25,114 nt of DNA from a virus. Positions 2,795 to 25,114 of this stretch are shown piece by piece. Made by a program: the position numbers and the translations under genes. Numbering within the stretch: position 1 is the stretch's first letter; each line of letters opens with the position of its first letter. The notes under the pieces were generated by a model. The model did not search any database, had not been told where the DNA came from, and saw nothing but the letters and a program-made list of their open reading frames with translations. Where the stretch lies: IMG/VR virus record IMGVR_UViG_3300042882_001412, positions 1-25,114 of that record. One strand, 5' to 3'.

Positions 2795-3887
2795 TCACTC
2801 ATCCGAACGCGGACAACGCAAAGTTCTTACTGAGGAGAGATATATAAGCTATTTGCAATCCTACGCATTCGTTGGACAAGCGGGTTTTATTGACACTCAA
2901 AAATATTGGGAGGAGTTATTGAGGATTCATTTAGCTGATACAACAGCAAAACTAAATGGTGACGTTAACATAAAAGAAGTTTTAGTTGATGAAAACAAAC
3001 CAGAACATCTGTTTAGTTATGCCTACCAAAACCACGAATCTCAATGGTCTGATTCTTGGAATCAGACCATTGAGAAAAACAAGAATATGAATATACATTT
3101 AGCGGGTCATTCTGTTAACGTTGACATGGACAAAGTGGTGAAGCCTTTACATGAAAACCATTTAACAACATTTGCAGACCAGAAAGAAGTTAAAGATACT
3201 TTGTCCATTTTGGACAAAGTATCTGACTTAAGACCTAGAGTAATAATTGACTCAGGAGCATTTACAGCTTTTACAACTGGGAAAATAATTAATCCTAAAG
3301 ATTATGCTACATGGTCTTTAGACTTTCAGAAGCGATGGGAGCATAAAATGAAATCTCTAAGTTTTATGAACCTGGACGTTATTGGTAATCAAGATGATAG
3401 CTGGAAAAATCAATCAATACTTGAATCGTTAGGAATGAAACCGATTCCTATTATTACTTTTGGATGTGATAAAAAGCATTTAATTAGAGCATTAGATAAC
3501 TATGATTATATAGCTTTAGGCGGTTTAGTTCCCCATAGTAGGAATAAAATCAAACTTCAAAAATGGTTAGATTATTGTTTCAACATAATCATGGGAAGAT
3601 ATAAAGAAACGGGTGTTATGTCAAGGATTCATTTACTCGGTATAACAACTGATTGGGTACTGAAAAGATATCCCTGCTATAGTTCAGATTCGTCATCATG
3701 GGTTGCTTGTTTAAGGTTTGGCGGCGGTGCTGCTGCGGGTTTAGATAAAATACCCAGATATAAAGAATCAGATGCCGCGTTATCAGCAACAATTCACACT
3801 TTACGATCAGAGGTAGTAAAATATAAAAAGATGGAAACTGAAGCAACAAATTTATGGAAATCAAGGGGAATAATCTGGGATGACTAA
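2775..3887 (+). CDS. dpdA: DpdA-type 7-deazaguanine DNA transglycosylase with N-terminal extension
   Basis: This 370-aa protein is related to tRNA-guanine transglycosylase. DpdA proteins swap guanine in DNA for preQ0 or a derivative. Visible blocks: MNIHLAGHS (105-113, the apparent start of the core), VIIDSGAFTAFTTG (156-169, counterpart of the TGT DSGGFQ motif), MNLDVIGNQDD (198-208), YIALGGLV (245-252), LLGITTDW (287-294) and CYSSDSSSW (301-309), with the candidate catalytic Asp. The frame also opens with TTG at 2751. ATG 2775 is chosen for its GGAAG Shine-Dalgarno. The first ~104 residues are not part of the TGT-like core and resemble the 51-aa ORF at 1936. Two perfect short-loop inverted repeats lie in the gene (3039-3075, 3194-3224). 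It overlaps parB by 8 bases. Confidence 0.88.
   Translation: MYLYLVDHSSERGQRKVLTEERYISYLQSYAFVGQAGFIDTQKYWEELLRIHLADTTAKLNGDVNIKEVLVDENKPEHLFSYAYQNHESQWSDSWNQTIEKNKNMNIHLAGHSVNVDMDKVVKPLHENHLTTFADQKEVKDTLSILDKVSDLRPRVIIDSGAFTAFTTGKIINPKDYATWSLDFQKRWEHKMKSLSFMNLDVIGNQDDSWKNQSILESLGMKPIPIITFGCDKKHLIRALDNYDYIALGGLVPHSRNKIKLQKWLDYCFNIIMGRYKETGVMSRIHLLGITTDWVLKRYPCYSSDSSSWVACLRFGGGAAAGLDKIPRYKESDAALSATIHTLRSEVVKYKKMETEATNLWKSRGIIWDD
3039..3075. repeat. 17-bp perfect inverted repeat, 3-nt loop, inside dpdA
   Basis: Arms 3039-3055 and 3059-3075 are perfect reverse complements (TCTCAATGGTCTGATTC on the left) separated by TTG. It encodes ESQWSDSWNQTIE at the end of the DpdA N-terminal extension, 11 bases before an in-frame ATG (3087) where the conserved core begins. 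A stem this long with a minimal loop is unusual in coding DNA. It could be an mRNA structure that slows ribosomes between two domains, or the scar of a snap-back replication event. Confidence 0.85.
3194..3224. repeat. 14-bp perfect inverted repeat, 3-nt loop, inside dpdA
   Basis: Arms 3194-3207 (AGATACTTTGTCCA) and 3211-3224 are perfect complements around TTT. It encodes KDTLSILDKVSD, a linker just before the RPRVIIDSGAF catalytic block. It has the same design as the repeat at 3039-3075 (long perfect arms, 3-nt loop) but a different sequence. Confidence 0.85.
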
Positions 3888-4554
3888 TTATAAAGTTGAG
3901 CGTGGGGTTTTGGTTGATAGTATTGATATTGAACCTAACCCGTGGAACCCCAACAAAACATCTGAACGTCAGCAAGAGGCGATCACAGAATCATTAAATG
4001 CCTACGGTCAAATCATAGAATTACTGGTTAGACCGCATCCAGAAAAAAAGGGTAAATATCAAGTTATTGACGGGGAACATCGTTTAATCTCATTGAGCAA
4101 CAAAGAGCAAAAAATCTTTGTTAATATTATTTACGACTTACCCGATGTCGAAGCAAAGAAATTAACCATTATCCTCAATGAAACCAGGGGTGATGCTGAT
4201 AAAATCGAACTTGCTAAACTATTGGAAGATATAAATAATGATTTAGGGATTGAAACGATCATAGGGTTGCCATACAGTTCTAATGAATTGGATGAGTTAA
4301 TAAAATTAGCTGATATTGATTGGGATAATTTTGCTAAGGGTGATGATGGTGACGAATTTGATGAAAATGATCCTACGACTGAATCATCGGAATGGATTAC
4401 TGTAGTTGTTAAAATCCCTTCTGATGCGATGGAGAGAATACAAGATGTGTACAACATCGTAAAAGATGAAAGGGGTACTTTACACAAAGATAAAGCGATT
4501 GCATGGGGACAGGTTTTGGAGTCTATGTCTGCTGATTACTTAGCTGGAAAATAG
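3880..4554 (+). CDS. ParB/Srx-fold domain protein coupled to dpdA
   Basis: This 224-aa protein has an N-terminal ParB-like domain: IEPNPWNPN (17-25), an AITESLNAYGQI helix (34-45), LLVRP (48-52) and QVIDGEHRLIS (61-71), which matches the GxxR nucleotide-binding box of the ParB/Srx superfamily. The C-terminal third is acidic (GDDGDEFDENDP) and lacks the ParB HTH and dimerisation domains seen in partition proteins. No parA is nearby. It starts inside the last codons of dpdA (ATGACTAA, 8-base overlap) with AGGGGA upstream, so the two proteins are probably made together. Related ParB/DndB-like proteins occur in some DNA-modification systems. A role in guiding or regulating DpdA is inferred; a partition or nuclease function cannot be excluded. 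Confidence 0.72.
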   Translation: MTNYKVERGVLVDSIDIEPNPWNPNKTSERQQEAITESLNAYGQIIELLVRPHPEKKGKYQVIDGEHRLISLSNKEQKIFVNIIYDLPDVEAKKLTIILNETRGDADKIELAKLLEDINNDLGIETIIGLPYSSNELDELIKLADIDWDNFAKGDDGDEFDENDPTTESSEWITVVVKIPSDAMERIQDVYNIVKDERGTLHKDKAIAWGQVLESMSADYLAGK

Positions 4555-4608
4555 GAATAATTGAACCTAAATTAATCGGGAGATTGCCAGACTAATTAAT
4601 ATTAATTG

Positions 4609-4662
4609 TGGTACAATAGTTAATAGAAATCGCCCTTCGCGGTACGTCAAATACCCAAGGGC
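4609..4662 (+). promoter_or_regulatory. Extended -10 promoter and leader hairpin of the antirepressor gene
   Basis: TGGTACAAT at 4609-4617 is an extended -10 element without a good -35. The palindrome ATTAATATTAAT sits just upstream, around 4596-4607, and could be an operator. A start near 4624 would give a leader with a 6-bp hairpin (GCCCTT 4632-4637 with AAGGGC 4657-4662), followed by AGGA before the ATG at 4688. Confidence 0.5.
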
Positions 4663-4687
4663 TGTAAACCTAACTAACAGGATCACA

Positions 4688-4957
4688 ATGAATAACTTTA
4701 ACAAAGAACTGGCTTTAAGTTTACTCGGATCTGGTAAAGAATACCCCGTTGATTTTGAAGACGCTTGGCAATGGTTGGGATATTCGAGTAAACAGGCTGC
4801 CAAAAAGAAGCTAACCCGCAACTTTGAACAAGAGGAAGACTATTTATCCGAATGGATGAAAACCCCAGATGGCGGTCGTCCTAGCGAATCCATCTATCTC
4901 ACCGTCGATTGTTTCAAGGCATTAGGGATTGATTGTTTTAATGTGTTATACTATTAA
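4688..4957 (+). pseudogene. Antirepressor, N-terminal fragment (gene split by insertion)
   Basis: Residues 1-81 form the N-terminal half of a phage antirepressor of the AntA-like type common in cyanobacterial elements: YPVDFEDAWQWLGYSSKQAA, then EEDYLSEW, GGRPSESIYLTVDCFKALGI. After codon 81 (base 4930) the frame runs into foreign sequence (DCFNVLYY) and stops at 4957. The matching remainder, MSGTEQGKKTRQYFL, resumes at 5689. Removing 4931-5688 (758 bases) would restore an in-frame protein of about 255 aa. The fragment may be inactive, may act as a split protein with the downstream piece, or may be rejoined if the insertion is spliced from RNA. AGGA lies 6 bases before the ATG. Confidence 0.75.
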
Positions 4958-22038: not shown

Positions 22039-23475
22039 CTATTTATTAATTAAGACTTTGGACTGAGAGGACTGAGATAATTGAGACTCCCATGCGGGTT
22101 TGAGGTAATTCGTGTAACGCTTGTTAGTAGAACGCGGCTCTATTCCTAACTCGCTACAAATTTGTTTTAGGGGTGATGGAATCAAACCGTGGGAATATTT
22201 AAAAGCCCGAAGTTCAAGAGAAGATTTAAACAGGGCAGTATTAACCTGCTCCCACCAATCACTATCCGGGTCGGTTGATTTGGCACTGGCAAAGGTAACG
22301 TTAAATCCTGATAGGTCAGGAATTGAAACTACTCTTGATTGCCCTTTGATTGTGCAGATAGCGGGTCTTTTCCCTTCCTTGAGCAACCTTTCAGCTATCT
22401 CTATTAACCCCGTTTTCTCCCCTGCTAAATACCGTAACTGCGATTCAGGGATTGATGGGTAGCAGATTATTAATTGAGCTAAATTTTCCAGTGTTGCCAA
22501 AGTAAAACCACCCTCACCGACGGACGCGGATTGACCCACGGGGATTAACTTAATCTTGTAGCCTCTACCCTGCTTAATGATCTCAATTAGCTTATCGAGC
22601 CGGGAATTGGTTTTGTCTGACTTGTATCGTTCCACGATACTGTCAAATTCTTCGCAGATTAGGCAAATCGGAGTCAGGTCAACTTGAATTTCTGATATCT
22701 TTTTGGCTCCGTTTTTGGCTCCGTCAACACAAGCCTTAATCCGTTTATCTAATTGGGCGTGAACGTGATCAATTAGGCTATCAATCTCGTCATCGGGTTG
22801 CTTGATCCATTCGGTGTCCAACCCAAACCAATTATTAAGATAACCGTCATTATCGGGCTTTCCATAGTTCGGGTCAGCAATAAACAGTTGACCATCGGGG
22901 TTATTCTCAAGCCATTGACTGATTATCAATCCCAGGAGTTTAGATTTTCCCGACCCCGTGCCACCCGTTAGCCTTTGATGTGGCAACGATAGAAATTCGG
23001 ATACCCAACCCGAATCATCTTTGATTGATTGAAACTTAGACTTGATTTCCGGTGGGATAGCGCGGATCAACAGTTGAGATGATTTGGCATAACCTTTTTC
23101 TCCAAAGTCCCCTAGACTATCCAAAGCCTGACCAACTCCCCAAACTGTCCAACTAACTGATTTAGCCAAGGTATCGGGGACGGTGCGGGGTAGATCCTCA
23201 AGTTTGACCATAGACTCATCCCCTAGTATCAACCCCGCTAAAGCACCAAGGCATCCCACGCCCGCTAAATATAGAAGGATTGAATTATTAACGGGTTTAC
23301 GCTCAATTACCAAAACGCTACCCCATTCTCCTTTCTGAGATTGGTGGGGTGAGATACCTTTTAAATCCTCAATCTGAACAGTCGCAGCGCTGAATAAACC
23401 AATGGCTGAAAATCCTAAACTTGCTGCAACGGCAACCCCCCAATTATCCTTAGTGAAGTTATTTGGTCTTGCCAT
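22039..23475 (-). CDS. FtsK/HerA/TraG-like DNA-translocase ATPase with two membrane segments
   Basis: The start at ATG 23475 has GGAGG 6 bases upstream; a longer frame to 23511 is rejected. The protein is 478 aa. Two membrane segments lie at ~14-33 and ~66-85 (SILLYLAGVGCLGALAGLIL). Walker A is LTGGTGSGKSKLL (~169-181); then QLFIADPNYGKPD, and Walker B LICEEFD (~272-278) with paired Glu. The end (SPLKQICSELGIEPRSTNKR) looks like a winged helix. The layout fits membrane-bound DNA pumps: conjugative coupling proteins or FtsK-like packaging motors. It is flanked by membrane proteins and wall hydrolases. Whether it moves DNA into virions or to another cell cannot be told here. Confidence 0.75.
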   Translation of the reverse strand: MARPNNFTKDNWGVAVAASLGFSAIGLFSAATVQIEDLKGISPHQSQKGEWGSVLVIERKPVNNSILLYLAGVGCLGALAGLILGDESMVKLEDLPRTVPDTLAKSVSWTVWGVGQALDSLGDFGEKGYAKSSQLLIRAIPPEIKSKFQSIKDDSGWVSEFLSLPHQRLTGGTGSGKSKLLGLIISQWLENNPDGQLFIADPNYGKPDNDGYLNNWFGLDTEWIKQPDDEIDSLIDHVHAQLDKRIKACVDGAKNGAKKISEIQVDLTPICLICEEFDSIVERYKSDKTNSRLDKLIEIIKQGRGYKIKLIPVGQSASVGEGGFTLATLENLAQLIICYPSIPESQLRYLAGEKTGLIEIAERLLKEGKRPAICTIKGQSRVVSIPDLSGFNVTFASAKSTDPDSDWWEQVNTALFKSSLELRAFKYSHGLIPSPLKQICSELGIEPRSTNKRYTNYLKPAWESQLSQSSQSKVLINK

Positions 23476-24265
23476 CTTTAGCCTCCTTTTCTGCCAATTG
23501 TTTAGCCTCAAGTTCTAATTGCTTTTGAAGGGCCTCAGTCCGCTTCTGCTGCTCGTAGGTTAAAGCTCTAAGTGTCATGGCAACCTCAGAGAACCGACGG
23601 ACATCACTCGCCAAAACCGAGACATTAACAGAGGTAAACTTTAATTGAATTTGATCTGCCGATGTAGTTTCCCAATGGCGTTTTAGTGCCAAAAGATTTC
23701 CCCAAACCTCAAACAACAAATCAGCCGCTTGCTTCCGTTCTTTAGGTGAACCGTTAAATTCTCCCTCTAGCGTAGCTTTATCAAGTTTGTTAGCCAGAAA
23801 GTTGATTTTCTTAATCAGAAATAACTCAATAGAAATGGGTTTCTTTTCAATCTCAGAACGAGCTTGCAACAGGAATGTTTCTGCTACCGCTTCACTCAAA
23901 TTGTTAACTTGAAAACCTACCTCGTTTAATGACTTATCTAATAGCTCATTTCGTGCCATTTCTAAGTCAGGGGATGGTTGAAATTCTCCAGAATTATCAT
24001 TAGCTTCGGTCGAGGTTTCCCCTGTTGGTTCTACCGTCATTTGCTGAACTTCGGCACTTTCAGCTACGGGAACGTTAGGAGCAAACTTCTTGATAATTCC
24101 TGATTTATTCCCGACTAAGGTAATAAAACTACAAACTGCAATAACTGTTAGTAAAACCGCTACTCGTTTTCGTGTTTTATTAGGCTTTCTAGGTTCCCTC
24201 TGAGTGGCTTCTGAATCCCCACTAAAAGCTGGTAAGTCATCACTAGGCTGTAAACTGTCTAACAT
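23459..24265 (-). CDS. 268-aa single-pass membrane protein with coiled-coil end
   Basis: A charged start (DDLPAFSGDSEATQREPRKP) is followed by one membrane segment (~34-50, AVLLTVIAVCSFITLVG), then a large outer or periplasmic region with helices (EVGFQVNNLSEAVAETFLLQ) and a C-terminal coiled coil (ALQKQLELEAKQLAEKEA). GGGAGA lies 9 bases before ATG 24265. The architecture resembles VirB10/TraB-like or membrane-fusion-type scaffolds only in a general way; no family is recognised. It overlaps the ATPase gene by 17 bases and is probably its partner. Confidence 0.62.
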   Translation of the reverse strand: MLDSLQPSDDLPAFSGDSEATQREPRKPNKTRKRVAVLLTVIAVCSFITLVGNKSGIIKKFAPNVPVAESAEVQQMTVEPTGETSTEANDNSGEFQPSPDLEMARNELLDKSLNEVGFQVNNLSEAVAETFLLQARSEIEKKPISIELFLIKKINFLANKLDKATLEGEFNGSPKERKQAADLLFEVWGNLLALKRHWETTSADQIQLKFTSVNVSVLASDVRRFSEVAMTLRALTYEQQKRTEALQKQLELEAKQLAEKEAKDGKTK

Positions 24266-24270
24266 CTATA

Positions 24271-24696
24271 TCAATCTCCCTGTGCATGGTGTGAGGTTTT
24301 GATTTTCTGGGCGTTGGTGTTTGGAGTGGTGTTTTCGGGCGAAAGTACCTTTCCATAGAGTTCAAGGGCTTCAAAGTATTCAGGACTCCCAGGCTGAAGG
24401 CAATTCAGGTGATTCTCGGTTGCCCTTTGGATCAGTTCACCCAACACAAGGTTAAAGTCTGGTTTTGTGTCTGATCTGTTGGGGCTTGTTTCCTTGTTTG
24501 ATTGGGTGTTATTGCGGGTTGTGATAGCCAAGAGTGCAGTAGTTGTGGAACTAGCTATTAATCCGATAAAACCCCCGTATTGACCCATTCTAACCTCTGA
24601 TATTTCCGGTTCTAATGTTAGGGATAACAGGACTGAACTAAGACCACCAATCACAGTTCCAACCATGATCGCCTTAACGGGTTCTGGGATTTTCAT
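24271..24696 (-). CDS. 141-aa protein with two membrane segments
   Basis: The N-terminal half has two hydrophobic helices (~7-26, VKAIMVGTVIGGLSSVLLSL; ~39-58, GQYGGFIGLIASSTTTALLA) separated by a short acidic loop, like a small holin or channel. The C-terminal half is polar (RSDTKPDFNLVLGELIQRAT ... YFEALELYGKVL). Its start lies inside the end of the 41-aa ORF upstream (23-base overlap). A holin would fit beside the two lysis enzymes farther downstream, but an assembly role is equally possible. Confidence 0.6.
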   Translation of the reverse strand: MKIPEPVKAIMVGTVIGGLSSVLLSLTLEPEISEVRMGQYGGFIGLIASSTTTALLAITTRNNTQSNKETSPNRSDTKPDFNLVLGELIQRATENHLNCLQPGSPEYFEALELYGKVLSPENTTPNTNAQKIKTSHHAQGD

Positions 24697-24799
24697 ATTG
24701 ATAGTTTTGGGATTGTTCCCTGATTCGACTAAAAACTACTTGATTGCTAAATATTAAAAACCCAATAAAGAATGCTGTTAAATAATAAATAGTATTCAT
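24674..24799 (-). CDS. 41-aa small membrane protein
   Basis: ATG 24799 has GGGAGG 9 bases upstream. MNTIYYLTAFFIGFLIFSNQ is a single membrane segment and is followed by a polar tail (SRIREQSQNYQYENPRTR). It overlaps the preceding 28-codon frame by one base and the next gene by 23 bases, so it sits tightly in the operon. No family recognised. Confidence 0.6.
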   Translation of the reverse strand: MNTIYYLTAFFIGFLIFSNQVVFSRIREQSQNYQYENPRTR

Positions 24800-24885
24800 T
24801 AGAAACAACCTCCCATTAAAAAGGGCATTACGTTATGTGAGCAGTAAACTCCAAATAGATTAACCAAGTCGATAACGATTCCCAC
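24799..24885 (-). CDS. 28-aa peptide, GTG start
   Basis: GTG 24885 has the strong Shine-Dalgarno GGGAGGG 6 bases upstream. The product begins MGIVIDLVNLFGVYCSHNVM and is mostly hydrophobic. Its start directly abuts the stop of the upstream frame (24886-24888) and its stop overlaps the next ATG (TAATG). Very short, so the call rests on ribosome-site quality and packing. Confidence 0.4.
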   Translation of the reverse strand: MGIVIDLVNLFGVYCSHNVMPFLMGGCF

Positions 24886-25114
24886 TTAAAACCCTCCCAT
24901 TAATAATTCTAATTGTTGACTGATTTCCTTGGGTTGAGGGATTTTTAGGATAACTTCTATTCTCTCAACCCGTGTTTCTAGTTCGTTTATTCTCCGAAAA
25001 AACTTCTCACAGCTAACTGGGATTTTTTTGACTTTCCCACCGCTTCGTTAAGTTGCTGTTCTAAAGCCTCAATTGAGATTTCTTGATCAAAGTCTAAGAG
25101 GTTTCCTAACTCAT
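24886..25114 (-). CDS. Partial gene with apparent -1 frameshift at a T6 run, coiled-coil end
   Basis: From the right edge, one frame codes for ELGNLLDFDQEISIEALEQQ and continues to FFGE, stopping at TAA 24987-24989. The -1 frame continues from the run of six T (minus strand, T TTT TTC, 25002-24996) as RRINELETRVERIEVILKIP and on to MGGF, ending at 24886-24888. This second part forms a coiled coil, has no ATG, GTG or TTG at a usable position, and its stop directly abuts the next gene's GTG. So it is coding but reachable only by frameshift, transcript slippage or an indel in the T run. GGAG follows the slip site directly. The upstream end lies outside the window. Confidence 0.55.

Follow-up and report, generated by a model that had tools for sequence, protein, structure and literature searches.

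The window analysed here is the whole of the IMG/VR virus record IMGVR_UViG_3300042882_001412, a 25,114-base sequence that is kin to the Planktothrix phage PaV-LD; its segment 22000–25114 shows 75% DNA identity to PaV-LD over 98% of that segment. The host of these viruses, Planktothrix, is a bloom-forming cyanobacterium and a toxic bloom former. All genes concerned are carried on the minus strand. Gene A, a homologue of PaV-LD ORF130L, is truncated by the window edge, and its 3' end (24987–25114, 0 frame) has the C-terminus ...VGKSKKSQLAVRSFFGE and the stop TAA at 24989–24987. The full-length homologue in L030 (L003/L030 contig) has 169 aa. A second frame, B, lies in the -1 frame, which is open from stop to stop across 25047–24886. 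The part of it that would be read after a slip (24886–25032) encodes the 48 residues VKKIPVSCEKFFRRINELETRVERIEVILKIPQPKEISQQLELLMGGF, with two predicted helices, and ends at the TAA at 24888–24886. The first ATG, GTG or TTG in B is an ATG four codons before its end, and start codons (only ATG, plus TTG in some relatives) occur only inside its last six codons. The start-less -1 frame reported by the first-pass annotation is therefore real on the minus strand, and its description as having no start codon is correct in substance.

As was also noticed earlier, the TAA of B directly adjoins the GTG of the next gene, a tiny ORF of 28 aa (24799–24885) that ends with LMGGCF and a stop and is conserved in PaV-LD. 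A hydrophobic ORF of 41 aa (24799–24674), likewise conserved in PaV-LD, overlaps the 28-aa ORF. Upstream of the GTG, the end of B contains the Shine-Dalgarno (SD)-like sequence GGGAGGG (24892–24898), the pairing of which with an anti-SD sequence was estimated at about -10.7 kcal/mol. Within 24799–24900, B and the tiny ORF both end with LMGG(x)F and a stop, with GGGAGG embedded before the next start, and this repeated stop/start coupling module is conserved in PaV-LD. The homologues of PaV-LD ORF129L (24271–24696, hydrophobic in its N-terminal half) and ORF128L (23459–24265, with one N-terminal hydrophobic segment and a coiled-coil-like C-terminus) are followed by an FtsK/SpoIIIE-HerA-like ATPase (22039–23511), which is 81% identical to its homologue ORF127L of PaV-LD. 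The ATPase matches the FtsK/SpoIIIE-like PHROG 1358 (E = 3e-10), and its match to the Pfam HerA domain is under the cut-off. The genes that come after the ATPase in PaV-LD are annotated as peptidase and endolysin. Plasmid matches of the FtsK-like protein were found in Oscillatoria, with about 28% identity and different neighbours. Gene A stands first in an operon that comprises tiny ORFs, membrane-type proteins and the FtsK/HerA-like ATPase; it is not a tail gene.

Protein and profile searches recovered 16 IMG/VR contigs with B, and a DNA pattern limited to B and independent of the heptamer matched 15 contigs, none of them additional. The contig 3300044655_003136 starts within B, so its slip site cannot be scored and it was left out, while 3300044922_000993 stops within B yet spans the slip site and was scored. 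PaV-LD is in the collection twice (HQ683709 and NC_016564) and was tallied once. The scored set consists of 17 records (the window, PaV-LD and 15 IMG/VR contigs) with 9 distinct site sequences, and every homologue of A and B falls in one narrow virus group. Neither A nor the FtsK-like protein retrieved relatives in scans of genome contigs. The two frames, that is, the stop of A together with an open B, are kept in all 17 records covering the site. The comparison of homologues that the first-pass annotation had proposed hence supports both frames, and a single continuous frame was sought among them and none was found.

The B-only region, 34 codons long, starts with the ATA that overlaps the A stop and ends with the B stop; the expected number of amino-acid changes was obtained by placing the same substitutions at random in 50,000 simulations. 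In these pair comparisons, which share branches and are therefore not independent, 18 substitutions separate the window from PaV-LD and cause 5 amino-acid changes, with 11.3 expected (P = 0.00016). Between the window and L014, 23 substitutions cause 5 changes (14.6 expected; 0 of 50,000 simulations as low), and between the window and L016, 16 substitutions cause 3 changes (10.4 expected). The result is weaker for PaV-LD and L014 (14 substitutions, 6 changes, 9.8 expected, P = 0.012), and the close pairs PaV-LD/L016 (P = 0.64) and window/L004 (P = 0.39) have so few changes that they are uninformative. When the other two frames of the B-only stretch are read, the changes are mainly nonsynonymous or hit stops. 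The differences in B are mostly synonymous across the deep split, and therefore B, as judged from its substitutions, is translated and under purifying selection. Silent codon changes in A were counted with the last AAA codon of A as the dividing column. Between L030 and L020 they affect 50 of 107 middle codons, 0 of 10 before and 1 of 11 after the column; between PaV-LD and L020 the corresponding counts are 39/107, 2/10 and 1/11. This drop of synonymous change toward the end of A gives weak support, the counts being small and the genomes looking mosaic. Synonymous change in A is also lower in its first 40 codons than in the middle, and in L002 (8547–9041, minus strand) an unannotated open frame of 164 codons shares about 113 nt with the 5' end of the gene.

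Extensions and heptamers of this kind also occur by chance. PaV-LD has 92 ORFs with a length of 100 aa or more, and in 32 of them the -1 frame stays open for at least 34 codons beyond the stop. These 92 ORFs (24,705 codons) contain 117 in-frame X_XXY_YYZ heptamers (Y = A or T), two of which are GGGAAAG. Five of 129 PaV-LD ORFs of at least 60 aa combine a heptamer with a -1 frame reaching at least 25 codons beyond the stop, and three of the five, ORF130 among them, have no start in the region checked. Length and heptamer by themselves are not beyond chance; conservation and the coding-like evolution of B are, as far as sequence comparison can tell. The end of the kinase gene ORF037 in PaV-LD (L057, 21207–22025) has an in-frame GGGAAAG and a start-less -1 extension of 45 codons, which is apparently non-coding and a chance occurrence, and provides a useful chance control. 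Elsewhere in the same genome (44900–45603), an A8 run adjoins the end of ORF065, the -1 frame of which continues without an early start for 195 codons into ORF066, a minor head protein. In the relative L060, the downstream protein seems to belong to a single 692-aa frame, and the ORF065/ORF066 junction reflects an error or mutation in PaV-LD or else a further frameshift.

The position of the shift in gene A is bounded on both sides. Because the -1 frame is blocked upstream, the shift must fall between the upstream -1 stop and the stop of A. The -1 stop precedes the slippery heptamer G_GGA_AAG (25032–25038; 0 frame GTG GGA AAG) by 3 codons in the window type and by 7 in the PaV-LD type, and this heptamer is found in frame within the two-frame overlap in 17 of 17 records. 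Among the 12 distinct A sequences, GTG GGA AAG is one of only 5 invariant three-codon windows out of 167, while 40 windows are invariant in amino acids. Immediately before the heptamer, the changes GCG>GCT, GCG>GCA and TCG>TCA are synonymous for A and replace residues of B; immediately after it, TCA/TTA and AAA/AGA replace residues of A and are synonymous for B (GTC/GTT, AAA/AAG). This is the pattern expected if B begins at the heptamer. On the contrary side, the L030/L023 pair shows two changes close behind the heptamer that are synonymous for A and replace residues of B (K>Q, E>Q). From this distribution, G_GGA_AAG, which the first-pass annotation had overlooked, is probably the slip site.

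The AlphaFold2 model of B (7 sequences, mean pLDDT 83.4) consists of two helices, residues 9–31 and 37–47 of GGKVKKIPVSCEKFFRR.... The first helix begins in the part encoded before the A stop, and the model therefore fits a -1 frame that is already being read there. Inspected by eye, B shows a conserved series of heptad-spaced hydrophobic residues (F/L, I, L, V, I, L). The model of A is not usable (mean pLDDT 43.6). Comparison of A and B with PHROGs, Pfam, NCBIfam and the PDB sequences gave no convincing match; the best PHROGs match for A of PaV-LD, a tail protein, is too weak (E = 0.049).

Several other explanations for the two frames have to be considered. The first-pass annotation had placed the slip at T_TTT_TTC, which is indeed found at 25002–24996 in the correct register, with B going on for about 36 codons past it, and a second heptamer, A_AAA_AAA (25023–25029), overlooked like G_GGA_AAG by the first-pass annotation, is also in register in the window. 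A shift at these downstream homopolymers, or transcriptional slippage on A7/T6, would agree with the presence of T_TTT_TTC in 14 of 17 records and of the tetramer A_AAA of the last AAA codon in all distinct A sequences. However, A_AAA_AAA is found in only 8 of 17 records, the A7 being lost in L008–L013, and T_TTT_TTC is missing in PaV-LD and two relatives (L016, L032). These three have neither homopolymer heptamer (A_AGA_AAA and C_TTC_TTC instead) and retain B. Moreover, the B-frame helix begins upstream of T6, and the VKK codons of B have silent changes before A7 ends. As a common slip site, T_TTT_TTC and A_AAA_AAA were rejected for their lack of conservation, and a shift at the homopolymers is unlikely when set against a heptamer kept in every record.

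Alternatively, B could be a separate small protein of 34 codons, made by reinitiation at an AUA that overlaps the stop of A (ATAA/ATAG). The overlapping ATA is present in 17/17 records, and a 4-base stop/start overlap is a common coupling layout. But AUA is a very poor start codon, a spaced SD is absent, and the GGAG before the ATA is not kept (CGGCGG in PaV-LD). The product would not contain the -1-frame VKKIPVSCEKFFRR. The first helix begins upstream of the ATA, as do the F/L pairs in heptad register, and the invariant heptamer would be left unexplained. With the helix onset and the missing SD both against it, this reading is disfavoured and somewhat less probable than a shift at the homopolymers. 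It is also conceivable that A and B were once one frame, separated by a one-base indel, a sequencing error or decay into a pseudogene, and homopolymer runs do adjoin the junction. The one-base indel had been named earlier as the plain alternative, but the window, PaV-LD and all 15 contigs share the same two frames, and this excludes a sequencing error or a recent indel. No single-frame record was found and B is under purifying selection, which leaves this explanation as a whole extremely improbable.

We consider it likely, from the conserved layout, that in gene A, a member of the PaV-LD ORF130 family, ribosomes undergo a programmed -1 frameshift at G_GGA_AAG, the -1 frame being coding and without a start of its own. 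Most ribosomes would read GTG GGA AAG TCA and stop 13–14 codons on, giving A (169 aa in L030). In a minority, tRNA-Gly and tRNA-Lys would re-pair one base back on GGG AAA, and these ribosomes would go on with GTC in the -1 frame to make A-B. The predicted A-B has 203 aa (169-14+48), the last 14 residues of A being swapped for a 48-residue tail that would be helical and coiled-coil-like. As a guess, the tail may allow a constant minor fraction of the A subunits to bind a partner encoded in this operon, candidates being the small membrane ORFs, ORF129, ORF128 and the FtsK-like ATPase. Ribosomes finishing B would terminate right where the next tiny ORF begins and, given the good SD at the end of B, could feed its translation; the frameshift may in this way also couple the downstream genes translationally. 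The slippage, its efficiency and the role of the tail are what we infer from sequence. Of the earlier proposal of a -1 frameshift with a coiled-coil extension, the frameshift and the helical, coiled-coil-like extension are supported, while the slip site and the role in assembly are not.

Stimulatory elements are frequent in programmed -1 frameshifting, though not obligatory. Neither a convincing downstream structure nor an upstream SD is evident at the site. The fold of 135 nt has z = -1.72, with 8 of 200 shuffles folding equally well, and the structures predicted downstream of the heptamer differ among relatives. SD-like pairing upstream of the heptamer is weak, reaching about -6.5 kcal/mol at best and -4.2 kcal/mol in L023. 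Within B there is a perfect 8-bp inverted repeat, GGGTTGAG/CTCAACCC (24931–24971; arms 24971–24964 and 24938–24931), which is conserved, with 6 bp kept in L014. It is not an obvious stimulator because it lies about 60 nt past the slip site, and the stem-loop may merely reflect the TRVE and PQP codons.

A distant parallel was found in L047, in which the ATPase is 79% identical and the gene in the place of A is unrelated (hhalign probability 0.1). This gene (3799–4727) has an in-frame A_AAA_AAC at 4476–4482, and its -1 frame goes on for 81 residues, with an ATG 48 codons along. A search for further records of the gene returned only the same contig. With the heptamer rate of PaV-LD, the chance of any heptamer in an overlap of this type is about 0.2, and L047, as one sequence, is only suggestive of a second instance of the frameshift layout. 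Tentatively, and with more doubt than confidence, the frameshift may determine how much A is made relative to A-B for a membrane-associated machine driven by the FtsK/HerA-like ATPase and couple tiny-ORF translation, with the layout rebuilt in L047. In that case, what the operon conserves would be the frameshifting itself, given that in L047 the A gene is unrelated and the heptamer a different one.

Tail and head genes supply the best-known examples of conserved frameshifts in phages. The direct homologue of A, ORF130L of PaV-LD (YP_004957403), also contains the second frame; it is annotated simply as a hypothetical protein, and neither B, a hidden coding extension, nor the following tiny ORFs appear in that annotation. 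No literature was found on PaV-LD and frameshifting, and no case of slippery-site frameshifting in cyanophages or cyanobacteria, or with FtsK in phages, was evident in the portions of the literature available. Bacterial X_XXZ_ZZN programmed -1 frameshifts, such as those of dnaX and the IS3-family transposases, use the same type of heptamer; here the genes differ and there is no clear stimulatory stem-loop or SD. In E. coli, heptamers with AAG in the A site, as here, form the most efficient class, and G_GGA_AAG counts as one of the three best -1 motifs when stimulators are present (PMC4066793).

The closest likeness is to the tail-assembly chaperone frameshift of phage lambda (gpG/gpGT). The lambda site is the identical G_GGA_AAG, located close to the 3' terminus of a small gene (PMC7618472), where a low-level shift yields a C-terminally extended form (PMC5009743). 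In contrast to lambda, A and B have no detectable sequence relation to tail chaperones, and A does not adjoin the tape-measure gene. In PaV-LD the tape measure ORF088 (61293–66047, plus strand) is about 24 kb from ORF130 (89983–90486, minus strand). Given this distance, the neighbouring FtsK-like ATPase and the lack of a convincing tail family match, the role in setting subunit ratios of phage assembly that had been suggested earlier is not supported. Compared with the lambda system, then, the same heptamer and the same logic of an extended product would here serve an extension of about 48 aa that is probably helical, as a candidate frameshift outside the tail and head genes, in an operon with a DNA-translocase-like ATPase.
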